DNA of 64,000 nt from the NCBI GenBank assembly GCA_008802785.1, contig VUYT01000003.1, forward strand, positions 558,001-622,000, read 5' to 3'. Source of the stretch: Symmetrospora coprosmae. Its lineage: Eukaryota; Basidiomycota; Cystobasidiomycetes; Symmetrosporaceae. The notes beneath the pieces were generated by a model, which had not been told where the DNA came from, did no database searches, and worked only from the letters and a program-made list of their open reading frames with translations. Position numbers and translations under genes: made by a program. Of the stretch, positions 16,765 to 61,500 are shown one piece after another. The stretch's first letter is position 1. Each line of letters opens with the position of its first letter.

Positions 16765-17563
16765 TGTGGGCTAAGCGGGAACTGAGAGTGACTGTGCGTG
16801 TGTCCGCGTAGAGGTGGAGAGGGTGCAAGTATTGCGAGAAGGGCTGCTTCAGGATCCCATCCGTCCAACGAAGAACAGAACCGCTCCAATCAAGCCGCGG
16901 GCGGGCTCGCCCAGGGTGGCCGGCTCGCTAGTCCTCCCTGCCCTGCCCCTGCCATTACGGCGATGACCATCTTGCACTGGACTCACGTTGATGTTGAGGA
17001 CGAGCTGCTCCTGTCGCTGTTCTGATCTGGTCTGACCGTTTCAAGGGAATAGATGAGTGGGCGGGAAGGAGGGAGGGAAAGGGCCACGCGGGCTCATCGG
17101 CTCAGGCGGCTGAAGCTCCTCGAGGGGATGGAGACGCAAGCTGACAATATCGACATGCCTCTCTCTCTGGCGAGGCACTCTGAAAGTCAACGAGAAGATG
17201 CAATGAACACAAGCAGACTGTGCGCATACTTACAATACTGATGCGTTGCTCCGTGCGCAGACCGCCCGCAGCCGGTGCTCCGAAGACCATCGACCTTGCC
17301 ATCTGGGCATTTCGGCGCTCCCATCTTCAGCACACATGGCCCTTTGGAAGCTGATGCCTGACACTCTCGTTATGGCTCGTGTTTGTTACATTCGGGGTAC
17401 CTCCATTCTATTCATGTCCCGTCAGCGTCGCCAGAGAAGGGGAGAAAGCTATCTTGGACAGCAGCCACTGATTCGCCGTCTCTTCTCTATTCGAAGGCCC
17501 GCGCAACCTCTGAACTCTCTGTCTCTGTTGACTTACCGTTCCCTCGCCTCCTCCTTCTATTGT
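16765..17563. promoter_or_regulatory. Divergent upstream region, ALY / mannosyltransferase
   Basis: About 800 bases between two outward-pointing start codons. An open frame reaches upstream of the mannosyltransferase Met but has no signal-anchor character, so I treat it as leader. No specific binding site is claimed. Confidence 0.45.
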
Positions 17564-19510
17564 ATGCTCGGTCTACTTCGCCTCTTGGGCGGACGACACC
17601 CAGCCCTTCGCGCCCTTCTCCTCTTTACCGCCCTGTTTGGGATCGGCACACTACTCTTCCTATGGTTGGTCGAGCGTCCTTCTCCTATGCTGAGAGGATC
17701 GCTCCCCAGCCCCTTCCCTGCGCCCGAAGACAAGACATTGCTGCCGAAACTCGCAGGCCCGGGGGAAGCGCCTTGGCTCGACGATGCAGAAGCATCGGAC
17801 ATCAGCGCCGAAGACGAGGAAAGCCAGCTCATCCCTCAAGCCAGCGACGGCAGTGTCTTTGACGAGCTGGATTCGTCGGTCCGCGCGCGCCTACCGCCCA
17901 TCTGCGCACCGCCAGATCCCTACCTCGCCGGCAAGCGGGAAAACGCGACCATCCTGATACTGGCACAGAACAATCGAGCAAAAGCTCTAGCTGAGACCCT
18001 TGTCAACTTTGAGGCCAAGTTCAACGCTGCTTACCGGTCTCCGTACACCATCCTCAGCGATGTGCCGTTCTCCGAGCCGTTCCGCCAGGCTGTCGCTGGG
18101 ACTTTACCTGACGGCGCTCTAGTCGAGTATGGCCTCATTCCAACTGAGCACTGGGGCATCCCAGAATGGCTGGATCAGGACAACGTCAGGAAGGGCTTTG
18201 TCAAGCTCGCGAAGGAAGGCGTCATGCACGGCGGCAAGGAAAGCTACCACAATATGTGCAGGTATTTCTCCGGCTTCTTCGCTATGCACCCGCTCCTCGC
18301 AAAGTATCGATACTACTGGCGGCTAGAACCGCAAGGTAGGTACAGAGAGTCTAGCTGCTTCTGCTGAGGGTGTGCTGACACTCTCGATGGTTCCTGGACT
18401 AAGTCGAATTCTACTGCCAAACGACATACGATCCGTTCCGCTTTATGCGCGAGAACGACAAGATATACGGATTCAACATAGCGCTCTTCGAGCTCGGCAA
18501 CACGATCCCTTCGCTGTTCCGGACGGCCCTGGACTGGCGGGACAGCGGGCCAGTACGGGACATATCGCGAAAGACAGGCCAGCTATGGGATCTTTTCCTG
18601 AAAGACTCTTCCGGGCAGACCAATGGTGGCTTGCGAGCAAAAGAGGAGTATAGTGAGTGCGGGCGAGCATCTAGCGAATTCCCGACAGCGGCTGGCTGAT
18701 GTCGGTTCCTGTCCGCAGGTGGATGCGTGAGCTGCTCGAACGTGATCTGGCCCGAAACTGGGTCTCAATACTAAAGACTGAGGTACTGCCACCTACTTCT
18801 TGCGGAGCAGCACTTCTGGACCAACTTCGAGCTGGGTGATCTCGATTTCTTCCGGTCCAAAGACTACCAGAGCTTCTTCCGGCACCTGGACAAAACTGGC
18901 GGCTTTTACTACGAGAGGGTGGGTCAGACACAATCAGCCTCGAAATTAAAGTCTAATCCTGTTGCAATGCCTGGCCTCGCAGTGGGGAGACGCAGCAGTC
19001 CGTTCCCTCGCGCTTGGGTTGCTCGCCAGGACTGACCAGGCGCACTAGTGAGTGGCGCTCTCTCTTCTCATCTTCCCATACACATCCTCTCCTTTATCTG
19101 AATATGACTATGTGGCTATCAGCTTCGAGGACATTGCCTACATGGTGGGTTGGCAGATGCGCGGCTGTGTGACCGCCTCAGGCCGAATCTGACGATCTGC
19201 GAAATATCGCTTACTTGAGCAGCACTACCCGTACCTCCACTACCCGGAAGATGAAGGGCTCAGGTGCAAGTAGGTGGACTAATCGAGCGTGAATGCGGTC
19301 AGCCCTCGCTGACTGCCTCGATGTGTCCCAACTTGCAGCTGCGATGCGGCGCCGCAGTCAATGCTGCAGTCGAACTACCACAATATCGGTGAGTGTCGCG
19401 ACCGCACCTTCCCTCGCTCCTGTAGCAGCTGAACCATGTCCCAATCGATAGCCAAATGGGAGGGCGAGACGTGCATGCGACGGTGGAAAGAGCTGCAGGA
19501 CCGAAGCTGA
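17564..19510 (+). CDS. KRE2/MNT1-type alpha-1,2-mannosyltransferase (GT15)
   Basis: Nine exons (17564..18335, 18404..18652, 18719..18726, 18811..18918, 18983..19047, 19123..19144, 19223..19269, 19339..19388, 19452..19510) give 459 aa. It is a type II Golgi protein: a short N-tail, one membrane anchor (ALLLFTALFGIGTLLFLWLV) at about residues 17-36, a Ser/acid-rich stem, then the catalytic domain. GT15 landmarks are NATILILAQN, GGKESYHNMCRYFSG, YYWRLEPQVEFYC, YGFNIALFE, the YSGCHFWTNFELGDLDF segment with the nucleophile-site Glu, WGDAAVRSLAL, HYPY, and CNCDAAPQSMLQSNYHNI near the end. Such enzymes extend N- or O-linked mannans of secreted and wall proteins using GDP-mannose. Exon 3 is only 8 nt and supplies the SGC of YSGCHFW; exon 6 is 22 nt. 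Confidence 0.93.
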
Positions 19511-32753: not shown

Positions 32754-34658
32754 GACAACCATGCCCGGACCATCGTTGAACGGCAATGGACACGCGACGA
32801 CGGAGGTGGATGCGTCACTCATCAACACCACACCGGACTGGCCAGGTGGGGGGAAACGGATGGTGCAGACGGTGGCGTCACGTACACAGCTGCCGCGCGC
32901 ACATGCGATGCTGAGATGTGCGATCCCTCTGACGCTGCAGGGCGATGGAGCCACACGGACAAGGTTCTCAGCCGCCCTTCTCCCTTCGCGCCCGACTTCG
33001 CCCCTGGAGATGCCGTCAGTGGAGGGGTCCTGCTCGGACTTGCAGCTCGAATGACGCGCCTGACGTCTCCGAGCATCTTTCCACGACTATACGACAGACG
33101 AAAGACTTCCTCCGCAACAAGTGCAAGGTCCTCGTCATTGGCGCGGGAGGCCTGGGATGCGAGATCCTCGCCAACCTCGGTCTCCTCGGGTTCAAGGATG
33201 TGCACGTCATCGACATGGACACGATAGACATCTCGAATCTCAACAGGCAGTTCCTCTTTCGGTGCGCTTACGCCCCTTCCTCGTCTTTCACCTCGCGCTC
33301 GAGCTGAGCGCAAGCGTCTGTGGTACACCCCCAGACACAAGGATGTCGGACGCCCGAAAGCTATTGCCGCAGCAGAGTTCATCATGCGACGCGTTCCCGG
33401 ATGCAAGGTCACCCCGTATTTTGGCAAGATCCAGGACAAGGACGACGAGTACTACATGCAGTTCAACCTCGTCATCTGCGGGCTCGACAGCATCGAAGCA
33501 AGGCGGTGGATCAATGCAAAGCTCGTGCAGCTCGTCGACGAGGACAACCCGGAGAGCATGAAGCCGCTCATTGATGGCGGGACGGAGGGTGCGCCCATTC
33601 GATTGCTTTCGACTTGTTCAAACTCACTGCTGATCCGGGCTGATGCTCTCCTGTTTGCAAGCACAGGCTTCAAAGGTCAGAGCAAGGTCATCCTTCCCAC
33701 CCTGACTGCGTGCATCGAGTGCCAGCTGGACCTCAACACGCCTCAAACCACGTACCCGCTCTGCACGATCCAGAACACGCCACGCCTGCCCGAACACTGC
33801 ATCTCCTGGGCGTCAGTCCTCGAGTGGCCGCGCGTATTCAAGGACAAGAAGATGGACACGGACGATCCGGACCACATCGGCTGGCTGTTTGAGCGCGCAA
33901 GTAGGCGCGCGGCAGACTTCAAGATCGAAGGGGTCACCTGGTCGCTCACCCAGGGCGTCGTCAAGAACATTGTGAGGCGGCGTTACATCTGGCCGGCAAG
34001 CTTTGTACAGCGGGCTGTTGACTGCGGCTTGCTTTGCCCGCGCCAGATCCCCGCCATCGCATCCACGAATGCCATCATCGCCGCATCGAGCTGCAACGAA
34101 GCCTTCAAGATCGCCACCACCTCCGCTCCTTACCTTGACAACTACATGTGCGTGCCCGCCGCCGGCGCATCCGCTGGCATCTTTGCGCGTCGGGCACGGA
34201 AGTAGAACCTGATCAGTCTCTGTGCCCGCTGCCAGGCAATACTCCGGGACCGAATCGCCGTACACGCACACCTTCCAGTACGAAAAGAAGCCCGACTGCC
34301 CCGTGTGCGGAGGCGAAGTCACGGAGATCACAGCTTCGCGGGACCAGACGCTGGAGGACTTCATCGAGGACCTCAAAGCGCGGCCGACAGTGTGCGTCGC
34401 CTGTCTTCCCCACACTCGTCATGCTCCTTGACTTGGCTGATGATCTTCATGAACGCTGGCAGGCAACTCAAGCGCCCTTCCTTCTCACTGAATGGCGCGC
34501 CCCTGTACTGGGTCGCACCCGCCCAGATCGAGCAGAGCACGCGAGCGAACTTGTCAAAGACGCTCGGGGAGTTGCTCGCCGGCAGCGGAAACGAGGACCT
34601 CACGGTCACCGACTCGGCCCTGCCCATCGAGCTCAACCTGCGAATCACTTTCGCTTGA
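32659..34658 (+). CDS. UBA3: NEDD8-activating enzyme E1 catalytic subunit, UBA3
   Basis: Eight exons: 32659..32845, 32941..about 33011, about 33073..33261, 33335..33588, 33667..33971, 34047..34147, 34236..34391, 34463..34658. Landmarks in order: [15 protein letters not shown] (family N-terminus), [15 protein letters not shown] (nucleotide-binding loop), [56 protein letters not shown] with the tail of the TACIEC adenylation/thioester motif, [21 protein letters not shown] (catalytic Cys in the PLCTI context), [27 protein letters not shown] (zinc Cys pair), and a ubiquitin-like C-terminal domain. UBA3 with ULA1/APPBP1 activates NEDD8/Rub1 and passes it to Ubc12 for cullin modification. The exon 2/3 junction did not close on a unique GT-AG pair. 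The N-terminus carries a poly-Ala run from a GCA repeat; a Met at 32761 is an alternative start. Confidence 0.93.
32722..32750 (+). repeat. GCA trinucleotide repeat (poly-Ala in UBA3 leader)
   Basis: About nine GCA/CAG units in a row, read as alanine in the proposed UBA3 N-terminus. It lies before the conserved part of the protein and is likely length-variable. Confidence 0.85.
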
Positions 34659-42741: not shown

Positions 42742-44360
42742 TCAAATCCGCCACTTCTGCTTCGCGAATGGCCGCATCTCGATGGGCCGCTTCCTTGCCT
42801 CGTAGAGCACCCATGCTACCGCTGCCGTGGCCGCTGCGAGCAAGCCAGCCGTCAAGATCGACGGCGTCCAGTATGCGTGCTGCCGCGTCGCTCCCGGAGA
42901 GCCCCTGATCAATGCAGCGCCGAGGGGCGCTCCTGCCAGACCGCCGAACCCGCGCAGCATGTATAGCAGGCCATTGACCGAGGCATACTGCGCAGGCCCA
43001 AAGAGCTCGACGAGCGACGCCGGGAACAGCGAGACGTACGCGCTGGCGAAGGTCCCGTAGGTGATGGAGAACGCGATGAACAGGCCTCGACTTTCGGGTA
43101 TGCCGCGCGTGAGCGTCGATGGAATCCAGAAGGCGGCAGTCCCGACCGCACTGACGAGCGTCGTCAAGGCGAGCGTGTTGATGCGGCCCAGGTAGCGGTC
43201 CGCCAGAAAGCCAATGACGATCTTGCCCAGCGCGTTGCAGGCGTTGTTGATGGCGATGAAGTTGGCGCCTGCAACAGCGCTGTAGTTGAGGCTTTGCGCA
43301 TAGGACGAAAAAAAGAAGAGGGGGATGTAGTACGCCATCCCGTGAAAGGTGGTCCCGATGGCTTGTGCTACAAACGCTTTGGACCGGGCCACGCGCCAAT
43401 TGACGAGCGGAATCTGGAACAGGTCCGCTAAGAGCGTGCGCTTGGCGAGGGTGTTCTCTCGCTTGAGTCGCGCTTTGCTGGCGTCATCCCAGTCCAGTAC
43501 GAAAGTCGAGGCAGTGAGGACGGCGATCGCGACGGCTCCGTTGATTCGCAGAGCGACCCGGAAGCCCAGGCGATCATTCATGGCCTGGATGGCAGGCGCC
43601 CAGACGAGCCCTCCGATGCCTGTCCCCGAGAGGACAATGCCCATCGCGAGGCCGCGTCGCTTGGTGTACCAGGTCGGCGTGACGGTGACGGCCGTGATGA
43701 AGGCGAGGCAGCTGCTGATGCCCAACAGGAAGCCCTGCGTGAGCATGAAGTGCCACAGCTTTGTGCTGTAGCTCGCCGACAGGCAGGCGACGAGATAGAG
43801 GACGCCAGAGGAGAAGAGCACGACTCTCGGCGAGAAGCGCTTGACCCAGGCGCTGGCCAAGGGCGCGCCTATCTGCATGAAGGCGACCGAGAGCGTGCCA
43901 ATGAGGCCGATGGCGGATTGCGAGACGCCCGTGAATGGGTTGCCCGGCTCCTGTGACATGTCCTCGTACAGCGCTTGATAGACTCCATAGGCAAAGTTCA
44001 GGCCACATGCCGTAAAGATGACGACAAAGGCCGAGATGCAGATGAGGACCTCGCGGCTGTGTAGGGACATGGGCATCAGTACAGTCCCTCATCGCCTCAT
44101 GAGCATGGGAAGCACGCAGCTCACAGCTGCGAGGGCTCGGGAACTTGGGCCTCGTCGGCCGGTCCCGCTTCTTCGGAAGAGGCGTGGAGTGTGGACGCGG
44201 ATGATGCAGTATCCTGAAGAACATGGCTGGCATTGCTGCCCTGACTATGCCCAGTCGTGGAGACGGAGGTCCGGCTTGCGGCTGCCATCTCCCGAAAGTC
44301 GGCAAGTTCGTGGGTCTCTGCCTTCCCAACTGCGGAACCGGGTGGACCGCTTGAAGCCAT
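42742..44360 (-). CDS. MFS transporter, monocarboxylate-carrier-like
   Basis: Two exons (complement 44125..44360, 42742..44056) give 516 aa. Exon 1 codes a polar Ser/Thr-rich cytosolic tail of about 78 residues; exon 2 holds twelve likely membrane helices. MCT/Mch-type landmarks: the first helix with GLNFAYGVYQALY, the loop QSAIGLIGTLSVAFMQIGAPLA, then AYSTKLWHFMLTQGFLLGISS, and WYTKRRGLAMGIVLSGTGIGG, the conserved R-R-G-x-A-x-G-x-x-x-x-G loop of this family, followed in the second half by IGFLADRYLGR. These carriers move monocarboxylates or related small acids across the plasma or vacuolar membrane; the substrate cannot be told. The intron donor CT|GTGAGC and acceptor ACACAG keep phase and avoid the weaker Met at 44076. 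Divergent from the Cys/His-repeat gene. Confidence 0.85.
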
Positions 44361-46615: not shown

Positions 46616-48541
46616 TCATCGGCTGGAGTATCGGGCCGCCTCTTTCTCCTCTGATGCCTTCTTCTGAAAGCCCTGCAATCGCGACGGATAGACAAGTAAG
46701 CACAGATCTGGATAAAGGCGCGGAGGGATTGGCAGTAGACTCACTCGAAGCATGGTCGTCCGTGTCGACTTCTTGCGGCGTGCCTCGGGCTTCATTCGCT
46801 CGTCGTCCTTGACCTCGAGGCCCGTGAGGGAGAGATAGCACTGCAAGGCGAGGCTAAGCGATGATGGGCTTGTCTCCGGTCCTGTGCGCAAGCGAGTACT
46901 CACGAAGAGATGGTCCGCGCCGCCTCCATAGGCGTCTGAGTGTGCGATAAGTGGCCCTAGTCAGTACGGGAATTTCGCTTGGATGCGGGCAGGGCAGTGG
47001 GAGACGCACCAATGCCAACAAAGTCGACGTGATCCTGCAGGATCGGACAGAGCGGCACTTAGCTTGCCTCGCGTGTCAAATTCACGATAGACAACCCTGC
47101 GCTCACCGAAACGATCATCTCGTCCCTGTCGAACCTGTACCTCTGGACCTGCTTCTCGTAGCTCTTGTGCAGCGCTTTGACAGCCTTGAGATCGTCGGGC
47201 GAGTAGAACCACTAGATACCGCGACACAATTCACGGTCAGCCAGACTGGGTTGCCGTGCATCGCCAGGTCGGGCGGGACGCACCCTGATGCGGAGGACGC
47301 CCAGAGGCTCTTCGCCCTGTCCCCGAGGCTTGAAGGTGCAGCAATCGAGAATCTCGCCGACCCTGACCAGGCAGGGGAACGCGTCTCAGATCCTCGCGCG
47401 TATGGCGAGTGGTTCGGGGCCCTGCTCACCACCAGTCGGACCAGTCGAGCTGAGTCTGGTCGATCTCCTCGCTCAACGAAGGAAGCTCCCTTGGATCGGG
47501 AAGGACTGGATGCCAGTTGCTCCATAGGTCAGCAACAGGCCACGTCATGTCTCCGTCGAATGCACCTCACGGTAAATCTGATCCTGGCGCGAGAACTTGA
47601 CTTCGTAGGTGATGCCGTCTCGCTCCACCTCTGTTCGGATTGACTTGTGGTACTCGAGGTATCGCGGTACGTCCTCCGGGGCGAATTCAACGCTCTCGGC
47701 TTCCCAGGTGTCTGCAGCAACAAGCGACCCCGCATCAGCTGAAACGCAAGGCAAGAGAAGATGAGGAGTCAATGGGAGCGCACAGCCCCTGGACGAGACA
47801 GATCGGACTCGCGGGCTGTCATCGTCATCGTCGTCATCCGACACGCTCCCACTCGCGCTCGTTGCAGTCGTGCTCTTCCTCTTCTTCCTCCCTCCGTCGT
47901 TTCTGCCAGACGAGCCAGCGTTCCGCTTGACGGGTGCCTGCTTGGCCTTGGCGGTGGTCGGCTTCTTGCCCGCGACAGCAGGTTTGGCCTTCTTGAGAGC
48001 GGGCTCTCGAGGTGCAGGCGAGCTTCCAGGGGGAGGAGGAGCGCGTCCGCCTTTGCGGCTCGGACCGAGCAGAGCCACCGTGACATCGGCCTCTGCGTTG
48101 TCTTCCTCCGAGTCTGTCGTCGATGCACTCGTCGACTTGCGCTTTCGGGTACTTGCAGCGGCAGCCGTCTTGCCAGCGTTCTTCGAGCGGGACGTGGTTG
48201 TAGTCGTCGTTCCTGTGGTCGTTGTTCCCGTCGTTGTGCTCTTGTTTTCGTCTGTGGTGGCAAAAGCGCGTCATGCGCGTCAGTCCGGCTCTCGAGGCCA
48301 ACAGAAGGCTGAGTGAAAGACGGGACGCCGCACCGCCAGTACGAGAGCGGTTCCTTCTTCTAGATGGCTCCTTTGCTCCAGCTCCAGCTCCAGCTCCAGC
48401 TCCAGCTCCAGCTCCAGCTCCAGCTCCAGTCACAGTCCGCCCTTGCTTCCTGGCCCTCAGGCTCGTGTCGGCAGCCGTCACTCTTCCTCTACGCTCGGGG
48501 TCATCGACCGACAAGGACGGGCTGCTGCTTGCGGTGGACAT
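46616..48541 (-). CDS. BAH-like domain protein, paralogue A
   Basis: Ten exons (complement 48322..48541, 47784..48251, 47571..47711, 47430..47505, 47284..47362, 47107..47211, 47010..47034, 46904..46935, 46745..46840, 46616..46672) give 432 aa. The N-terminal ~230 residues are Ala/Gly, Thr and Lys/Arg-rich with an acidic patch, like a chromatin protein tail. The domain then reads YTWEAESVEF, YEVKFSRQDQIY, LPDPRELPS, WWVGEILDCCTF, LGVLRIRWFYSPDDL, KSYEKQVQRYRFDRDEM, SDHVDFVGIDAYGG and LTGLEVKDDERMKP. This order matches a bromo-adjacent-homology fold (GD-x-IY start, W[FY]Y strand, SDHxD end). It is one of five head-to-tail copies. Exon 7 is 25 nt. A nuclear, chromatin-related role is inferred from the fold only. 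Confidence 0.75.
48374..48429 (-). repeat. Hexanucleotide repeat (Ala-Gly run in paralogue A)
   Basis: About nine copies of GCTCCA (plus strand) in a row; on the minus strand they code alternating Ala-Gly in the N-terminal tail of BAH-like protein A. Such an array is expected to vary in length between strains. Confidence 0.9.
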
Positions 48542-48963
48542 GTTTGAAAAGGAGGGAAGGCTGCACAATAGTGTATGAGAGTGGACGGTCTCTGGCTTCT
48601 CCAGCGTAATGCCGACTTCTGCACGATGCAGCGGAGGAAGAGAGGGAGGCCTGCATCTCGCTTGTTTGTTTTGAGGAGGGACGTCTCCACCACACGTGAC
48701 ACGTCTTGTCGTGTAGGCGGGAGGTGGGGACGACAGCGCGTAGATTGGAAGCAGGGATGTTGCATTGACTTTGGGGTGCAGACAGACTAGGAACTACAAA
48801 GGGGCAGAGTAGCTACAAAGACAAGGGGTACAGGCTCCGGGCTATCCAGGTTTCAGGAGGTGAGTTCAGCGGCAAAGCAGGAGATGGAGACGGGGGGCAA
48901 TGTTCTACGAGAAGGGGCAAGCGGCGTGGCGTCCTGTCACGATCGATTGGGTGCACTGCGCGT
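48542..48963. other. Spacer between BAH-like paralogues A and B
   Basis: About 420 bases upstream of A and downstream of B. No gene seen. Confidence 0.4.
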
Positions 48964-50506
48964 CTAGGCCTTGCGCTTGTTCGAAGTCGACGACGGCTTC
49001 TTCTTCGCCGCCGTCTTCTTGGGTGCCTTCTTGGCTCCAGCCGAGGCGGACGAGTTGGGCGCTGCGCGCGAGTTCTGCGTCTCGTCGGCATTGGCGTCGT
49101 CAACGTCGAGCGAGGCGTAGTACTTGGCATTGTTGTCGTTGGCCTTGAGCGTCCACCCGACGAGCTGAGTCACCTTGGGCTTCTTGAGCTTGATGCGCAT
49201 GTGGGGCGGCTTGAGGCGCTCGTCGTCAGGGACAGACAGCCCACGGAGGGTCAGGTAGTTGTACGTGCCCTCGGCATGGCCGGCGTACGAGTCGATGCCT
49301 GCATATGGCATAGCTTGCGTTCAGAGGAGGCTGCTGCAGGCCGACACCCTTGCTTGGAGGGGTCCACCTACCGATAAAGTCGTAGTGGTCCGATGCGATC
49401 CTCTCGTCCTCGTCCATGCGGTACTTGAGGAGCTTGGTCTTGAAGCCTTCGTGCAGGTACTTGAGCTTGGGCACGTCGTCCTTGCTGTACATCCACGTGA
49501 CCTTCAAGACGCCCAGGTCCGTCTCGCCCTCCTGGGGAAGCGAGTAGCAGCTGTCGATCTGGGCGACCCACCAGTCGTCGTCGGCGAGCTCGGACTGGTC
49601 AATCTCCTCGGACCGGGGCGGGACTTCCAGAGGCAGGACGATGGTCAGTCTTTGCTGCCGGAAAGCCCGGATGAGCACGCAGGCATGGTGACTCACGGTA
49701 CGCCGGGTCCGGAAGGACGAAGATGAGGTTTCCTGGCTTGAACTTGACCTTGTTGGCCACGCCGGCCCTCTCCAGGGTCGTCTTAATGACGGGGTGCTGC
49801 TTGAGGACATTGTCGAGATCCTCAGGCTTGATCTCGATCTTCTCGGCGTCCCAGGTGTACTGAAATTGAGCAGACTATCAGTTTCCCTGCCCCATCCCTC
49901 TGTAAAGGCAGCATCGCTCGCTCACGCCGCGAGCAGAGGTCGAGCGGACGGTCCTGGCTGCTCCCTCGTCCTCTGAATCCTCGGTAGTGCCCGTGGTGGA
50001 CTTCCTCTTGTTCGACTTGGACGACTTCTTTGCTGCGATAATGCTCTTGCCCTCGGAGATGGGCGCCTTCTTGGAGGCCTTGGACGCCTTCTTGCTGGCG
50101 CCCTTGCCGGCAGAGGCCGGGGCATTGTCGCGGCTGCCCTTGCTGCGCGGAGCGAGCAGCGAGGCCTGAACGTCGACCTCCTCCTCGGTCGAGACGTCGT
50201 CCTCCTCGATGGACGAGGGCGACTCGGTCGTCTTGCGGCGGGGCGAGCTTCTCAGCTCGTCGTCTGCGGATTAGCGAAAACAACACGGCAGGCATCCATC
50301 AGATGTGCATACCGGGCCGTTCACACGGAAGTTACTCATGACTCACTCTCCTCGGAGCCGGCAGTCGACTCGCGGGCGCTGACATGCTTGCGGGCAGTTC
50401 GGCTGCCGCTCGCGGGCGGGGCGCGCTTCCTTGCGACAGACGAGGTGCTTCCTCGCGAAGTGGGCTTGGCACCCGACGCTCCGACTGCGCTCTTGCGTGG
50501 TGGCAT
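48964..50506 (-). CDS. BAH-like domain protein, paralogue B
   Basis: Five exons (complement 50347..50506, 49926..50263, 49697..49859, 49372..49623, 48964..49298) give 415 aa; the cleanest gene of the array. The N-terminal ~165 residues are Ser/Lys-rich with acid clusters (KKASKASKKAPISEGK) and look nuclear. The domain runs YTWDAEKIEI, VKFKPGNLIFVLPDP, DDDWWVAQIDSCYSL, LGVLKVTWMYSKDD, LLKYRMDEDERIASDHYDFI, IDSYAGHAEG, LRGLSVPDDERLKP and then a family-specific block VTQLVGWTLKAND. The tail is Lys-rich (KKTAAKKKPSS). The introns before YTW (phase 0), after FIG (phase 1) and before the PP-R-S stretch sit at the same places as in A and C. No catalytic motif is seen; binding of modified histone or protein partners would be typical of BAH domains. 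Confidence 0.8.
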
Positions 50507-51022
50507 TGCTATCTACTGTCGTCGTTGTCAAGGCGAGCGGAGCGGGCCAGCCATCCCATCCTCAGACGAATCAGCGCACGCTCCCGATGGGAATGCATTG
50601 TGACGGGGATGAAGGAGGGATGCGCACCTGTGTCTTCTTTGATTGTTGCTCCTCTGCCAGCTGAATCCAACCCCTGTCCCCTTCTTTGCTGGTGAGACGG
50701 TAAGAGGAAGGGCCACAGGCGAGCCGGCGGGCGCACGTGGTGCAGGCGAAGAGATGTTGAACGAGAGGGGCGCGGGGCGGCAAGAAGGTCAGAGGGAATG
50801 AAACATGCTTCTGACCCTACAGAGTGACAGAGTGAGACAGACGGACAAGCGCACTTGGATCCACTCGAACATACAGTCATGATAGTTGTGCATTGCATCT
50901 GTAGCCTGTACATTCGTGCCGTTTGTCCGAAAACACAACCATCATCCCGCTGAGACCCGTCTCCGCAAAACGTGCTCATTGCACAAATACACACAAAGTC
51001 AACAGCGCAGCATTCTGTGGGG
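50507..51022. other. Spacer between BAH-like paralogues B and C
   Basis: About 515 bases; upstream of B, downstream of C. No gene seen. Confidence 0.4.
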
Positions 51023-53090
51023 TCAGAGCCTGTCGTCCGAGTCCTCCCTCTGCATAGGCAGTGTGTCCTGATCCTGCGTCTGCGACTGGTTCTGCGTGCC
51101 CACTTTTCGCCGTTTCGCATCTCTCGCGCTCTCCGTCCGGCCCGCAAATGCTTGCTTTTCGGCCTCGCGCTCAGCCGCAACTTTGAGCGTCCACCCTACC
51201 ATACGCGTGTACAGGTTCTTGCGGGGCGGTTTGCGCTTCGACTCGGGTCGCATGCGGTCCTCGTCGTCCACCTCCAGGCCGGACAGACGGACGTAGGCAT
51301 ACTGCTGGTCCGCGAAGCCAGCAAAGGTGTCGATGCCTTCGGATCGGCGGACAGGTCAGCCTGCAGTTTTGTTCGAATGTGAAGTCATTACCCACCAATG
51401 AAGTCGACGTGGTCCGAGTCAATCAGCTCATTCTCGTCAAAGCGGTATGCCCGGATCTTCTTGATGTAGTCCCTGTGCAGGCTCGAGATCTTGGTGCTAC
51501 ATCGGAGAAAATGAGACGTTAGAGAAGGACAGGGAGTCAAGGATCGATCTGCCTGCACTTACCAATGATCTGCTCGGCGGGCGGGAAAGGAAGGGAAGGG
51601 AAGGTGAGTCAGCGTTGCTCATCGAATGCAGCGCGAACTGGGCTGGCTTACCAGGCGAGTAGAACCACTTGATGCGCAAGATGCCTAGCGTCTTCTCGCC
51701 ATATTGAGACTGGTCTGTGTGGTGAAGGGCGTCAGCGGGGATTTAGAAGACTGCGACAGTCCGCCTTTCTGACAGCTTACCCAATGCGCAGCAGTCGAGG
51801 ATCTCGGCAGTCCTGCCAGAGACAGTACCGTTAGTCTCTCCCCTGGTCTGGATTTCCCAGCTCGCCTTGCACTTACCACCACTCTTCCTCGGGCAATTCG
51901 GCGATCCGGAGGTCCGGGCCGTCCTCGGGCAGCTCCTCCAGCCAGGCAGGATCGGGACATACCCTTAATGCAGCATAGATAGATCATGTCAGTCTGACTC
52001 AGAGAGTCCCTTTGCATAACGATTCATGGAAGCCAGTCCTTCGCCCACTCACCAGATCTTGTCGCCTCTCCGGAACTTGACAATCTCGTTCTTGCCCTCA
52101 CGCTCGATGGTCGCCTTGATGCTGTTGTGATACTTGATACGACGCTTGACGTCTTCAGGCCGGATGTCTAGCTTCTCCGTGCGCCAGAGGTACTGTGCAT
52201 CACAGCAGGGCAAGAGGCGACCAAGGCATGTCAGCGCTGCTGACCGGCTGCAGCTTGTAGAAAGCACACGAGCCACGAGCAGAACTTCACTCGTGGCACT
52301 CACACCTCGATGCGACGTCGACCGAACCCGCGGAATCGAGCTGTCATCCTCGCTCTCCTCGCCATCCGAGCGGCTGCTTATCTGCGTCGTCGTGGTATCA
52401 TCCGGCCTTCTCTTGCCCCCGCTCTGATAGCTCCCCGTAGTCTTCCCCTTCCCTTTGCCTCCCTGTCCCTGTCCCGCATTGCTCGTCGACGACTTGCGCT
52501 TGAACGGGCTCGTCCCTGTGTTGCTCGATGTGGTCGTGGTCGGGGCCGCACTCACACCCGAGGAAGTGGTCGAGGGCGAAGGGCGGCGCGCTGCCTGCTG
52601 CTGTTGCTGCTCCTTCTCCCTGCGACGCGCCTGTTGCTGCTGTGCCGCATTCCGCGCGTTGATCAGTGGCGCAAGGAGCGAGGCGTCTGGGACCTCTCTC
52701 GACGAGCTCGAAAGGTCGGTCCGGGCGTCAGCCGGCTGAGAGCTGCTGCTCCCTGTAGTGCCCGACTGCGTCTGCTGCTGAGTCTGCTGCGTCCCCTGTG
52801 CGCGCTGCTGGGAAGGGCCGGCGAGCCCTGTTCCGCTGGGACCGGTCGACGTCGACGAAGAGCGGATGATGTCCTCGTTCTCCTCGTCTGCACACGCATG
52901 AACAGTCAGCGATGTCCCTCAAAGGGTCTGTGTGCGAGGCGCACGCACCAGAGAGCGGCGGCGGCAGTGGGTAGGCGTTGGCCTTTCGCGAGACTCGACC
53001 GTCCGGAGGAGGCGCCGTCGTCTTTCGAGCCGTCAAGGATGGGTCGGGTGTGTTGTCATCGCGCTCGAGATTGAGGCGCTTGGGAGGCAT
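51023..53090 (-). CDS. BAH-like domain protein, paralogue C
   Basis: Nine exons (complement 52949..53090, 52304..52887, 52053..52192, 51877..51963, 51781..51812, 51652..51714, 51563..51569, 51396..51496, 51023..51336) give 489 aa. The N-terminal ~240 residues are Gln/Ser/Thr-rich and basic, ending in the acidic stretch SDGEESEDDS and RVRSTSHRG, as in A and B. The domain reads YLWRTEKLDI, IVKFRRGDKIW, CPDPAWLEELP, EEEWWTAEILDCCAL, LGILRIKWFYSP, LHRDYIKKIRAYRFDENELI, DSDHVDFIGIDTFAGFADQ, VRLSGLEVDDEDRMRP and RMVGWTLKV. Exon 7 is only 7 nt (ATCATTG on the minus strand); including it makes the loop between WFYSP and LH exactly as long as in paralogue A, which supports it. The tail is Gln/Asp-rich. 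Confidence 0.8.
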
Positions 53091-53500
53091 TGCAGCGATG
53101 CGATTGCGCGTGCAATCTCAAGCGTCTGAACCGGGGTGGTCTGTCGGTGCGATATCGATATCGAAGCAAGGAGGAGAAAGGCGAAGGAGGCGGGAGACGC
53201 CGCCGACTCGAGGCGGCGGCGGCGGTGGGGACTGCAAGCTCCTCTCGAGGTCAACCCCAGGGACGCAGGCAAGGCAACGGCAGCGACAGGCATGGGTACA
53301 TGGCAAGCGGTATATTGACAAAGCAGGCCTCGGCGAACTACCAGCCTGTTGAGTCTGCTCGTTCGCACTTGTGTCATCCGAGTAGTCGCCGGCACGTGCG
53401 GCCTGCTTTACTCTCGAGCGCGCATGGGTGGGGACCGGGGACGATGGGATAAAAGACAAAAAAAAGGAAAGATTGTTCCTATCACACTGTAGTCACGGAG
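53091..53500. other. Spacer between BAH-like paralogues C and D
   Basis: About 410 bases; includes a run of about ten A residues at 53457-53466. No gene seen. Confidence 0.4.
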
Positions 53501-55317
53501 TCATGAGACTGCTGGAAGCCGGAAGAGAGCCTCCACATTCTGTGGCACCAGCGGCCGACTTGCCGAAGATGTGCGGGGACCAAAAGTTGGCAACAGCTGG
53601 CTGATCTCCATGCCAGCTCGCCGCGCATGCGTGATTGAGGTGTCCGAGGCCTCATCGCTTTGATCTTTTGGAGCTGGTCTTGCTCGGCCCTGCCTCACCT
53701 CAGAGGACGCGTCCCTCTTCTTGCCAGAGGCCGAGCTTCCACCATTCTTCTTGCTCTTGCGCTTGCCTAGCTGAGCTTCATCGTAGGTAAGCTTGCCATC
53801 CCTGCCGCGCTTGACACGCGCATCCAGATCGATGCGCTTTCGCTTCTTTCGGTCGTTGAATCCCTGTGAACCGCTGGAAGAGGGGGCAGTCAATCGACGT
53901 TCTACCACGGTAGCCGTAGAAGCAGTGCTGACCGTCATTCAGACCCATTCCGTGAGCGTTCTCGGGTTGCAGTCTTCATTGGGGCCAATGCGCTCGACAT
54001 CGGCTACCTCCAGACCTTGAATCTCGAGGTAGGCGTAAACCTTGTCCGCGAAGCCGGAGAAGCACTCGAGGCCAATGAAGTCGTAGTGGCTGCATGGTGT
54101 ACGAAGGAGAGTCAAGCGGATATCGCAAGGACTTGGCCTCTGTGGTGGCAGCGATTCATTCGGTGTAGACCCTCTGTCCGGTGCCATGGCGCAGAACCGG
54201 CAACATGGCGTCTGAAGGGTCAGCCGACACTTCTTCGCGACCGACAGAGTCAAAGTTCACTCCGAGCTTTCGCGTACCTCGCGAGACTCGAACGACATCC
54301 TTCGGACTCGTCCGACGTGCTGCGAGTGGGGCACCTCGAGCCTGTCGTACAGCTTCTGAACGTCACCCTGGCTGTAAAGCCAACGGACGCGAAGGACGCC
54401 GAGATCGGATGCTCCCCCCTCTTCATGCGCAGTCTTCCTCAGGGTGCAGCAGTCTGCAATCTGCGCAACGCACAGGTCCTTCGTGCGCAACTCAGCGCGC
54501 TTTCCGTTCACGTTCTGGTCGTGCTTCGCCTCCAGATCCTTCGGATCCGGCAAAGTGTAAATGAAGTCGCCGCGCCTGAATTGAACCGTCCTTGCCTTGC
54601 CATTGATTTCGATTTCCGTACCGAAGCTGGCGTGCTTCTTCATGTTCTGTAGAACATTTTCCTTGCTGAATGCCAGGACCTCGGTTTTCCAGTCATACTG
54701 GGCCCAAGGAGAATCCGGTAGGTATGGACCCGATTAGATCTATTCGCGGCCTTATGGACATACTCATCGTCTGGCCGCCAGTACTCACGTCATTGGGAGA
54801 CAGATACCTCCGGTCGGGGCCGCGATATTCGCGACCATTACTTTCGGCAGCGCTGGTCTCGTCATCGGTTGAGGCGGTGTCATCGGGGTGATCAGGAGAC
54901 GGGTCCTGCTTGAAGCGTAGAGGCGGCAGTGCCTGCTGCGCCTATCTGTCTGGGTTCGCTCGGATGTCACTCTGTGCGGGTGCCCGAGCTTGACTCTGAA
55001 ACGCATCTGTGGCAACACTGGGTCCGGTGTTGACGCTTGACTCGCCAACCACAGGCGCTGCGGCGTCGCGAACGGTATTAGCTTGCTGTTCAGCTCCAGA
55101 GTGACCTCGACCTGTGCGTCTTGTGAGCTGCTCAAGCAGAATATACGGAAGAGCGCGTGCGATCGGGTGGATGGGTCACGCGAAGGTGAAGAGGGGAGAA
55201 CAAAAGCCATCAAGACGCGACAGTATGGTCAGCCGACGCAGACGAGCGGGTCGTCACCCGGCTGGACGAAGAGGCTGGTATCTAAGAACGCAACTGACCG
55301 CTTTTGCTGCGGGCCAT
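53501..55317 (-). CDS. BAH-like domain protein, paralogue D (possibly degenerating)
   Basis: Supported exons: complement 55299..55317 (MARSKSG start, 19 nt), 54789..54905, 54261..54697, 53945..54089 and 53501..53863. The domain is intact: YDWKTEVLAF, VQFRRGDFIYTLPDP, VAQIADCCTL, LGVLRVRWLYSQGDV, SSDHYDFIGLECFSGFADK and IQGLEVADVERIGP; the tail IDLDARVKRGRDGKLTY matches paralogue E. Two things are odd. First, the stretch between exon 1 and 54905 has homology to E in its GRG..SSV..T part, but I could not join it without an in-frame stop. Second, where E reads WVWIT before the last intron, D has TGG GTC TGA; an earlier donor (TGG|GTCTGA) with the acceptor before 53863 restores a full-length tail lacking VWIT. 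It may be a working gene with a shifted splice or one losing function. Confidence 0.6.
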
Positions 55318-56952
55318 TGGTGCAGCTCTGTCTAGGCAGGGAGAACCAGCGGGTCGGCCCCGAGGTCAGCGAGACCGAGTCTGGAGACCGCTTTCTGTGA
55401 GCCTACGGTGTGCTGAGAGGATGACCAACTGATGTGGGAACGCTTCACGGTGTTGCCCGGCAAGGCTGAAGTCGGCGAAAGGAAGACATAGGCCAGACGT
55501 CCGTCTTCCGTGTCTGGCCGATGCGGAGATTGTGCTGCGAGCGCTCAGGCCCACGTTCGGACCTGCGCGGAACTCTACTCGTTGTATATAAATGCTCGAT
55601 GTCGCGATGGTGGACGCTCTCAATTGCTCTGTTGGACTGCAACTACCCCATCTCCCGGCTGGCGCATCTCCTTGAAAAGGTCTCCGCAAGCTCGGCCTCG
55701 ATGCGGGTTCTGGCGAGATGAACTGTGTCGGCGGATCCCTCGAGACGACGGTCTGCAATCTGAAAGTCAGAAGATACGGAAAGCTCGTATCTCGACGCCT
55801 GCAAAGCCGCCTCGGCCGTCACCCGCGAGATAATTCTGGCCGGGCCTGTCGCGGTGGATCGGGAGGTTCTGCCACTGCTGTTTCTACACACTTAATCGCT
55901 TTCCAACTCCCGCAGTTATCGGCGGCACTTCTATCGCTTTCCAACTCTCACAGTTATCGGCGGCCTTCTACTGCAGGACTTCAAGACAGGACATTGCCAG
56001 CCGAGGGTCTTCGGCAAACTGCAGGATCGGCGAGAACGAGCTTGACGAGAAAGACCCATATTGCGTGCTGCGTGCTCGACGCGCCTCGACTAGAGCCCAG
56101 GCTGCGATGTTGCCGTCGCATCCTCTGCCTTGGGCCAAGGTGCAGCTGTATTGGGCGCGCTCACATTGTCCGTCTCCCTGGACGCAGCCAGACTTCCGAA
56201 ATACGGTGGATACCGGTCATTGACCTTCTCCGTCTCAGAAAGCGGCAACCAGTGCGCCCTTGAACGCAATTGTGAGCGGTACGTCTGGCTTAAGTAGCTC
56301 TTCAAGGCCACCAACTGCAAAAGTCGAGCCGCCATGCGATGTGCCGCGCTTCCGTCATTCCTGATGCAGGTGGAGATGAGTGACGGTGAAGGCGGAGAGG
56401 ACGCCCTAGCGTAAGTATGCGAATCTAAGCCATATCATGATATGCGATTGCACCTTTATGAAAGGACAAGAGAAGGAGACCCCAGAAGCGTGAGGCGAGG
56501 GAGCCTTTCACATAAGAGGCTCAAGCGCGCAAGCAAGGCTTGACGCATGCGAGGCAAGACTACAAGTCGTGGATCTATGGCTCACACAGACCACTTGACG
56601 GTCGCCAAGGCGTGCAACTGGATTAGTACATGCATCAGTGCGCCCGTAGTACCGCACGTGCAGGCTGCCGGCGTTGACTCGTTATGACCGGAGTGTTCAT
56701 TGCCATGGCAGCATTGAGCGGTAAAGGGTAAAGACGTGGAGTGCGTCGAGGGGAATGATACAACGAGGATGTACGTTTGTGAACTGAGTAATGACTTCTG
56801 CGAGATGTGCGGAGCGGGAATGCGCGGGGTCGGTCGCGAGGTTTTGAGAACTGAGAAGACGTGAGCCGCATCGCAGCTGGAGCAGTCGGAGTCTGACAGC
56901 CGGAAGAGCTGGCTTAATCCATCGAGCTTGAGCGAAGAGCCGAGCAGCGATG
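55318..56952. other. Gene-free spacer between BAH-like paralogues D and E
   Basis: About 1.6 kb, the longest gap in the array. Open frames here are short, overlap on both strands and show no family features. It contains a 38/37-bp direct repeat at 55895..55969 and no RNA gene that I can see. Its length would suit a deleted or decayed further copy, but I could not align any part to the BAH-like domain. Confidence 0.4.
55895..55969. repeat. Two-copy 37-38 bp tandem repeat
   Basis: The phrase starting ATCGCTTTCCAACTC and ending GTTATCGGCGGC(A)CTTCT is present at 55895..55932 and again at 55933..55969 with a few differences. Confidence 0.85.
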
Positions 56953-58537
56953 TCATCGTTTCGCTTTCTTGGAGGGGCGCCGGCTCGTACCAGCCTGGCT
57001 GGCCGACGCCTTCGCTTTGCTGCCACCGGATGTCGCGCCCCTCTTCTTGGCTTTGGTCCTGCTTGTCTCCGGCTCAACGTAAGTGAGCTTTCCGTCTTTG
57101 CCACGTTTGACGCGCGCGTCAAATTCAATGGGCTCCCGCCTCTTCCTCTCCTCGTAGCCCTGCGTGGTAGAGGGGACATGTCAATCAGGCGGCACACTGG
57201 GCAGATTTGCTTCCTTGCGATCACTACGAGATACTCACAGTGATCCAGACCCATTTCTTCAGAGTCTTTGGATTCCTCCTATCCACGGGCCCAACGCGCT
57301 CGATGTCAGCCACCTCGAGACCATGGATCTCGAGAAACGCCTGAACCTTGTTGGCGAATCCAGAGAAGCACTGCAGGCCGATGAAGTCGTGGTGGCTGGG
57401 CAAAGGTGGGAGGCAGCCAGTCCGGAGATATTAGGTTCGAATGCTGCCGCAAGGACCTGAGCAGCTTACTCGGAATAGATCGCCTGTTGAACGGCAGAAG
57501 ATCCGCGGCGTGGTCAGTCGGCTTGCGCATTAGGCAGCGGATCATCGCCTTCGCTGACCTCGTACTTCCCAAACTTCATGCTCTTGATTGGCTTGATGTA
57601 GTTCGAGTGAAGTGATCCGAACTGGTCATTCAGCTCCGTGACATGCCTCCTGCTGTAGAGCCAGCGAACACGCAAAACTCCGAGATTGCTCTCTTCCCCA
57701 CTCTCCGGGTCAGTGGTCTTGAGGACACAGCAGTCTGCAATCTGCGCGATCCACATATCCTGCGTGCACAATTCGGTACGCCTCGCGCTTGTATTCTGAT
57801 CCTTGTTCTCTTCAAGGTAAAGTGGATCCGGCAGAGTGTAGATGAGGTCGCCGCGATGGAATGCAACCGTCGTCTCTTTGCCTCTGAGCTCGACCTGGGC
57901 GTTGAAGCTGGCATGCATTTTCATTCTCTTCAAAACGTCCTCCTTGCTGATCTTGAGGCACTCGGTTTCCCAGTCATGCTTGCGCAGAGACCACGAGAAT
58001 GGTCAGCATTTAGTACATGACTCATACTGTCGTCATAGAGAGTTAGAATGCAGTACGACCAACTCACACCTTCAGCCGACGTGTTCCTGGAGTCGGGACC
58101 TGGGCGATTGTGCTCGCCTACATCCTCCTCAGCATCGCTCGACTCATCGTCGTCTGTTGTCGTTGTCGTTGTAGATGTGTCCTCGACGTCATTGCGTCCT
58201 CGCTTCGAGCGCAGAGGAGCCCTTGCCCTTCCCGCCTGGTGCCTGGGCATGAGCCTGGGATGTCGATGCCGCAACGTTGCGGTCGGTGCTGACGCTTGAG
58301 TCGCCTCGACCCTGGTTCTGGCTCTGTGTCTGTCGAGCTGCGTGGTCGTCAAGTTGGCAAGGCGGATATGTGCGCATTGGGCGCGTTGAGCGGCGAAAAG
58401 CGGAGAGGGTCGAGGGGGGATGGGGGAGCAACAAGTGAGCGCCGGCGAGTCAGAAGAGTACAAGGGCAGTCAGCACTCGTGTTGAACTGTGTAGCTGTAT
58501 CTTCGTCATCCGACTGACCGCTGCTGGTCCTCGCCAT
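56953..58537 (-). CDS. BAH-like domain protein, paralogue E
   Basis: Supported pieces: complement 58519..58537 (MARTSSG, 19-nt first exon ending AGCG|GTCAGT as in D), a second exon starting at 58337, an acidic segment before 58066 (TDDDESSDAEEDVGEH), 57527..57978 (domain), 57239..57395 and 56953..57159. The domain reads HDWETECLKI, VAFHRGDLIYTLPDP, WIAQIADCCVL, LGVLRVRWLYSRRHV, LHSNYIKPIKSMKF, HHDFIGLQCFSGFANKV and IHGLEVADIERVGP; the tail IEFDARVKRGKDGKLTY and a Lys-rich end follow. The domain exon lacks a good GT donor in the needed phase; AATGC|GCAAGC is a candidate GC-AG intron, which would keep phase. The junctions within the N-terminal region are not resolved. E and D are each other's closest relatives in the array. 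Confidence 0.65.
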
Positions 58538-59772: not shown

Positions 59773-61500
59773 ATGAACACCATCCTATCGCGGCGCATCC
59801 TCGCCTCTGCCGGACCTCCATCACGCCACCTTCTGCTCGCAGCCGCCACTCCGGGTCGGGATCTCGCATCGCGACGGGCGTTCTCGAGTCAGCGCAGCGT
59901 GGTACGGCAGCTACAGGAGCAGCAGCATCAAGAGCCATCATCATCTCAGCAGCACCGCGTTGACAATGCTATCTCCAAGACGGGTGAGCCTGCGCTGCCC
60001 GAGTCAGGCACGCCCGACCGCCGGTACCTGAATCGCTCACTTACTTAAGCGCACTCGCTTGCAGCCTCCACGCAGGACATGCCGACCATCTCGCCTCGTC
60101 TTCCTAGCGATCTCGATAGCGCGACCGTAAACACGGCAACGGCGGACTCACCGCTGTCGAATGCGGCGGCTTTGGAGGAGGACCGGAAGCATGAAGACTG
60201 GGGTGAGCTCGACAAGCGGGTAGCTTGTGGAGGGACATTGTAAAGAGCCGTTCGAGCTCACCTTCCGCTTCGCATGCAATGCACGCAGTCCTCTACCACC
60301 CCGTCTACAATACGCAGGACCTGCACTCAGTCAAAGTCCTCACGCACGAGAACAAGACGCTGTCCGACAAATTCGCAGCGGGCCTCGTCAAGCTGTTCCG
60401 CCGCGGTTTTGACATCGTTACGGGGTACAAGCACACGGACCCGAAGGCGGTCCTTGACGCGACGAGCGACAAAGCCAAAGCACAGATGAGCCTTCAAGAT
60501 ATGCGCAAGAAAGGGCTCGTCATGGACGAGAAGCAGTGGCTGAGCGTGAGTGCACCAAGGCGACTGCTAAGCTCGCTTCACATATACTGACGCTTCTCGC
60601 TTATTGTGCATACGCAGCGTATCCTGTTCCTCGAGAGCATTGCGGGAGTTCCGGGTATGGTCGGAGCTGTCTTGCGGCACCTCCGATCCCTCCGGAGCAT
60701 GAAGCGCGACAATGGTTTCATTCACCTGGTGCGTACGAAGACGGGCGCGATGTTCGTCACGCTATGTCTCAGCTGACACTTGGATCTCACCACCCATCTG
60801 CAGCTACTGGAAGAAGCCGAGAACGAGAGGATGTGAGCTCAGCCCAGCTGTTCCACGCGACGGACATGTTCAGTCGTCTGACGCGCTTTCACCATGATCA
60901 GGCACCTCCTGACCTTCATGAAGGTCGGCCAGCCGTCCCTCTTCTTCCGCGCCATGGTGCTCGGTGCCCAAGGTGTCTTTTTCAACGCTTTTTTCCTCTC
61001 GTACCTCATCTCCCCACGCATCTGCCATCGCTTTGTGGGCAAACTGGAGGAGGAGGCCGTGTACACATATTCGATGGCCATCCAGGAGGTCGAAGAGGGC
61101 CGCTTGCCGGAATGGACTGACAAGCCCGCTCCACGGATCGCTATCGACTACTGGCGGCTGCCGGAGGACGCCAAGATGCTTGATGTGCTCTATGCTATGC
61201 GCAGCGACGAGGCAGGTCACAGGGTGCGTCGAACCTTTCCGCTTCTCCAATATGACGGAGCCAGACTGACGCTTGTGTTCATGTCGGCAGTTTGCAAACC
61301 ACTCTTTCGCCAACTTAGACGAGAAGGACTTCAACCCTTTCGCAATCAAGAAGCCTTCTGGAGCGGTGCAGGGCAGTGTAGTCGGCTTTACCAGGGAGCA
61401 AGGCCTGGAGTGGTACGACAAGGCACGGCAGGACCTGCGCGAGGCAGAACGGAAGCGGCCGTCGACGCAAGAGTCAGGCGAGAGGCAGCCTAAGCAGTGA
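59773..61500 (+). CDS. AOX1: Alternative oxidase, mitochondrial
   Basis: Seven exons (59773..59983, 60065..60202, 60289..60545, 60618..60728, 60804..60832, 60902..61223, 61291..61500) give 425 aa. The N-terminus [14 protein letters not shown] with further Arg residues is a mitochondrial presequence. The mature enzyme has the di-iron ligands in their usual settings: [14 protein letters not shown] (Glu 1), [11 protein letters not shown] (Glu 2 and His 1, split by the 60832/60902 intron), [12 protein letters not shown] (Glu 3) and [13 protein letters not shown] (Glu 4 and His 2). It oxidises ubiquinol and reduces oxygen to water at the inner membrane without pumping protons, bypassing complexes III and IV. 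Exon 5 is 29 nt. The C-terminal extension (about 60 residues, Lys/Glu-rich) is common in fungal AOX. Expression in fungi is often induced by respiratory stress; no site is claimed here. Confidence 0.96.

Follow-up and report, generated by a model that had tools for sequence, protein, structure and literature searches.

BAH domains that bind histone H3 trimethylated at lysine 27 (H3K27me3) have been described in several systems. The Neurospora protein EPR-1, which combines a BAH domain with a PHD finger, is described as an effector of H3K27me2/3 (PMC7348808, PMC10638273, PMC13068663). In the plant protein PtSHL, the trimethyl-lysine lies between Tyr41, Trp63 and Tyr65, with H3S28 and H3P30 held by His88 and Asp90, and single changes of Tyr41, Trp63, Tyr65, His88 or Asp90 abolish binding (PMC6013494). 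AIPP3 contacts H3K27me3 through Tyr149, Trp170, Tyr172, His198 and Asp200, and the aromatic cage together with the His and Asp residues has been proposed as a mark of H3K27me3-reading BAH domains, which are stated to exist in fungi as well (PMC7718874). Here we analyse an array of five BAH-like genes (A–E) in a 64,000-nucleotide stretch (the window) of the Symmetrospora coprosmae genome, positions 558001–622000 of a contig labelled C33 in an assembly of 20,053,935 bases and 77 contigs. The reading that we favour, with modest confidence, is that the array lies at the centre of a family of methyl-lysine readers, probably of H3K27me3, that is old and was amplified locally; it comprises PHD-less proteins (A–C) together with cage-impaired and decaying copies.

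Architecture of the array

The array spans window positions 46616–57978 plus upstream exons, and the five intron-bearing paralogues lie head to tail on the minus strand, in agreement with the initial annotation of the region from 46616 to 58.5k. The minus strand was read in three frames and spliced at GT...AG boundaries, giving introns of 59–171 nucleotides (nt). Models of A, B and C are complete, and those of D and E cover the domain and tail. Gene A (48541–46616; 10 exons, 428 residues) encodes a disordered N-terminus, the BAH-like domain and a short tail. Gene B (50506–48964) has 5 exons and encodes 415 residues; a single exon, 49372–49623, carries its complete ligand signature (WWVAQI, W-M-Y and SDHYD). 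Gene C (53090–51023) encodes 489 residues in 9 exons, one of them only 7 nt long. The domain of gene D (53939–54697) is split between exons 54697–54261, a single open frame holding most of the domain core, and 54089–53939; its first exon or exons are not settled. The domain and basic C-terminal tail of gene E (56953–57978) are assigned to exons 57978 to about 57559, 57395–57239 and 57159–56953, in which the splice donor ahead of HHDFIG is uncertain and the upstream exon or exons, to about 58.5k, are not settled.

The common domain of approximately 170 residues extends from a Y-x-W motif to the GLEV block, with protein identities of about 38–52% among A–E and of 38–44% to C in the motif-block alignment. 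The resemblance exceeds chance: a genome search with the C domain recovered E, D, B and A with best E values of 6e-29, 4e-19, 1e-17 and 3e-6, respectively. The motif blocks align in all five genes, except that GFA, listed in the initial annotation among the shared blocks, occurs only in C, D and E and is replaced by GHA in B and GGA in A. Conservation of intron positions holds for the intron ahead of Y-x-W, found in all five genes (shifted by one base in A), and only partially for the others: an intron between W and V is restricted to A and C, and one at the Gly ahead of IDxFAG occurs in B and C and lies one codon later in A.

The N-terminal tails of A–C are of low complexity, as had been noted, with 13–20% K/R, 27–29% S/T and 7–10% bulky hydrophobic residues. 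The family proteins are probably nuclear, and each has a single divergent BAH domain flanked by basic/acidic disordered tails. The N-terminal tails of A–C contain an acidic-hydrophobic motif, which takes its strict form (EEVDVxASLLAP) in B and a more relaxed one in A and C; it is also found in the metagenomic relatives P0001 and P0004 and is a candidate docking site. One regular expression for it gave no match at seven loci that hold dispersed copies or fragments. In the full models of A, B and C, no PHD finger was among the six Pfam families listed at E ≤ 10, and no enzyme domain was found by Pfam. Repeats in the array include an in-frame hexanucleotide repeat coding for (Gly-Ala)n in exon 1 of gene A (48380–48427, minus strand), and two 32-nt units, 94% alike and 38 nt apart, in the D–E spacer (55895–55964).

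Copies elsewhere in the genome and their age

The family extends outside the array. Protein searches of the genome, in which C, D, B, H, J and F served as queries, agree on ten near-complete copies (A–J) and two fragments, counts that are lower bounds, with at least five copies beyond the array. Copies H (C33:660.7–661.4k) and G (C33:663.7–664.4k), in the region of loci L007/L012, are divergently oriented and about 2.3 kb apart; F lies at C33:769.9–770.6k, I at C44:718.7–719.1k and J at C75:204.5–205.1k, and the fragments at C11:633.2k and C22:82.1–83.7k. A weak match on C49 was dropped from the family. The proposed local expansion is thus borne out by 8 of the 10 near-complete copies lying on one contig, C33 (binomial p = 6.8e-10 for a given contig, 5.2e-8 after multiplication by 77); tandem copies are not independent, so these values measure clustering only.

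By sequence divergence the paralogues are old, because best matches between genome copies are only 31–52% identical and the array units share no direct repeat of more than 48 nt; on the same grounds, recent tandem duplication was rejected. Relatives passing E 0.01 were found in three sets of metagenomic candidates: 3 of 1,211, 10 of 7,995 (three being the same as in the first set) and 1 of 84. By best BLAST score, P0004 and P0010 are closest to B (48% over 347 residues and 77% over 115 residues), P0011 is closest to E (58%, with 53% to D), and P0001–P0003 and P0005–P0009 are closest to C (41–60%). In the tree, the pairs B with P0004 and D with E alone are starred, and 7 of the 12 inner branches are open. 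The presence of these relatives indicates that the B, C and D/E types probably split before the organisms that carry them did. With metagenomes as the set compared, the suggestion that the expansion is lineage-specific is not established.

Several copies are damaged. In D, the domain exon closes with an in-frame TGA (53941–53939), ahead of the basic tail, where E and F have TGG; the tail downstream of it is still open (53863 to 53505) and similar to that of E (RVKRGRDGKLTY in D versus RVKRGKDGKLTY in E). In H the reading frame changes within the domain, the C11 copy is a truncated piece and the C22 copy is disrupted. Such damage would suit a family that is mostly in decay and does little at present. 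That explanation is nevertheless improbable given that the domains of A, B, C and G are intact and read through with usable splice sites, and that relatives of B, C and D/E persist in metagenomes at 41–77% identity to the nearest array member.

Fold of the common domain

The domain very probably adopts a BAH fold, as judged from the predicted structures of two relatives, one of them weakly supporting, which give the BAH beta-core. The fold proposed in the initial annotation thus stands on structure prediction, and sequence profiles fall short of it. A profile–profile comparison of the family against the Rsc type, by hhalign with A5, found nothing. PF01426 was above its curated Pfam cut-off in none of three exons and appeared in one of nine members at E 0.22, so that a BAH fold, and not membership of the Pfam family, is claimed; NCBIfam and PDB profiles gave no proof of membership either. 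The best of the six Pfam families at E ≤ 10 was DEC-1_C (E 0.0072 in one of nine members), a match that probably reflects low complexity.

The top Foldseek match of the B-type model is TNRC18, a mammalian protein solved with an H3K9me3 peptide, and ORC1- and DNMT1-type BAH domains also rank high. These matches, together with a longer stretch between the cage and the H-x-D pair than in SHL, would fit readers of another mark, H3K9me3 as in TNRC18 or H4K20me as in ORC1 and DNMT1. Among the VIA-align rows of the same model, however, the highest identities are to SHL and EBS (22–24% over the matched core), and SDHYD is literally the SHL string; we regard a different mark as unlikely.

Conservation of ligand-contact residues

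The residues that contact H3K27me3 in the described readers are largely retained. The W-x-Y part of the cage keeps its Trp in nine of the ten genome copies (I has His) and its Tyr in all ten, and the H-x-D pair is present in every copy. At the first cage position, which lies ahead of V-A and corresponds to SHL Tyr41, seven copies (A, B, C, E, G, H and J) have Trp, and this residue is replaced by Cys in D, Ala in F and Asp in I. In alignment A6, made of 13 chosen rows, Y96, E124, H130 and D132 are invariant, W94 is kept in 12 rows, and I40, L90, G154 and V157 do not vary among the 12 rows that extend to them. A MAFFT alignment of 12 rows that included the PDB letters of PtSHL, EBS and BAHCC1 (copy I left out) likewise showed invariant W, Y, H and D columns.

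The register of the H-x-D pair agrees with that of SHL and AIPP3. In the structure alignment, PtSHL 95 and AIPP3 205 both end on residue 296 of P0004, which, if the stretch is ungapped, places His88/His198 on His289 and Asp90/Asp200 on Asp291.

The family resembles the plant H3K27me3 readers SHL, EBS and AIPP3 in its BAH fold, W-x-Y and H-x-D, including the SDHxD string of SHL and EBS, and differs from them in the longer stretch from cage to H-x-D, the Trp at the first cage position and the lack of a PHD finger. Mammalian BAHCC1 shares the BAH fold, W-x-Y and H-x-D, and TNRC18 the fold. In SHL, EBS, AIPP3 and BAHCC1, the cage and H-x-D grip H3 trimethyl-lysine 27 and Ser28/Pro30, and most family copies keep these residues. 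Residues published as H3K27me3 contacts rank with the most conserved positions of the family, which supports the proposed chromatin reading indirectly; this match is a stronger argument than fold similarity alone, one that deduces binding from residues. It makes methyl-lysine reading likely, and H3K27me3 specifically the somewhat favoured ligand.

A BAH fold may also serve nucleosome or protein binding without methyl-lysine reading, in the style of ORC1b, RSC or MTA1. For this family we consider such a role quite unlikely, given that H-x-D and W-x-Y rank with the most conserved positions even though the best matches of the copies are just 31–52% identical.

A putative writer and other BAH genes

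A weak CXC match (E 0.20) on contig C23 led to a minus-strand locus with CXC and split SET exons at about 57.6–58.55k (L072), both below Pfam cut-offs, which is likely to be an E(z)/KMT6-like gene. Its SET piece matches PF00856 at E 0.01, below the family cut-off, and the CXC exon alone matched no PDB chain or Pfam family. Searching this single 3 kb locus by tblastn with the human EZH2 CXC–SET region gave a summed E of 2e-18, a generous value owing to the single-locus database and the disabled composition correction. In the whole-genome search the locus reached only E 0.022 and was outscored by three others, as would be expected for SET domains in general. For other Polycomb components, a search for the SUZ12 VEFS-box, in which no control matched either, gave no match in the genome, and of 17 matches in the EED search at E ≤ 0.01, none stood out decisively from WD40 repeats.

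Just two loci of the genome match PF01426, and both lie outside the array. One resembles Rsc1/2 and polybromo; in the other, at C13:77.4–78.5k (L002), a canonical BAH exon is followed by a PHD-like exon, an arrangement that is Snt2-like by eye. These Rsc1/2- and Snt2-like proteins have a BAH domain in common with the family, but theirs are recognised by Pfam. No EPR-1-like gene was seen; a 74-residue SHL/EBS-like query was unmatched in the genome, a search made without a control that cannot show absence.

Genomic surroundings

The G+C content is about 0.56–0.63 and introns are short; a search for transfer RNA genes returned none. A Pfam scan of 10 exons of the window identified exons of a Glyco_transf_15 mannosyltransferase (17207–18364), a ThiF protein (33228–34202), a major facilitator superfamily (MFS) transporter (42745–44088) and an alternative oxidase (60882–61490). 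The mannosyltransferase, the MFS transporter and the alternative oxidase, taken with the style of the introns, point to a fungus; PF01793 is typical of fungi. The MFS transporter and the alternative oxidase are the nearest flanking genes identified for the array in these exons, and do not favour the genome-defence system that had been suggested. A defence or selfish system would fit the fast drift, the tandem and dispersed copies and the partial decay; it was little tested, nothing was found for it, and we consider it extremely improbable.

Proposed function and implications

In the mechanism that we propose, an E(z)-type enzyme would write H3K27me3, on which the BAH domain would dock (another methyl-lysine being less likely), and the divergent disordered tails, including the acidic-hydrophobic motif, may recruit or compete for silencing partners, with repression as the presumed outcome. 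The family proteins would thus be nuclear adaptors, with the BAH domain for the mark and the disordered tails for the partners. D, F and I, each lacking at least one cage residue, could act as weak, competing or decaying readers.

Like EPR-1, the family consists of fungal BAH proteins, for which reading of H3K27 methylation is predicted. As EPR-1 is described, it is set apart by its PHD finger, which A–C lack by Pfam, and by the number of family copies, about ten with five in tandem. No description of a fungal BAH gene array was found at the level of titles and abstract openings, with subscription journals mostly outside the scope. A bolder scheme, which we hold as possible though doubtful, is that in this fungal lineage a single Polycomb reader has given way to a repertoire. 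Some ten BAH proteins, PHD-less, invisible to Pfam and divergent in their tails, would bind the same H3K27me3 and each bring different partners, D, F and I would compete as antagonists, and the choice of reader produced would tune silencing in place of EPR-1.

A 2020 review described the route from H3K27me3 to repression in fungi as a complete mystery (PMC7348808). A multi-copy family that retains reader residues and is overlooked by standard domain annotation supplies candidate H3K27me3 effectors, and copies such as D, F and I offer natural cage variants for testing them. It also serves as a warning that counts of fungal BAH proteins may be too low.
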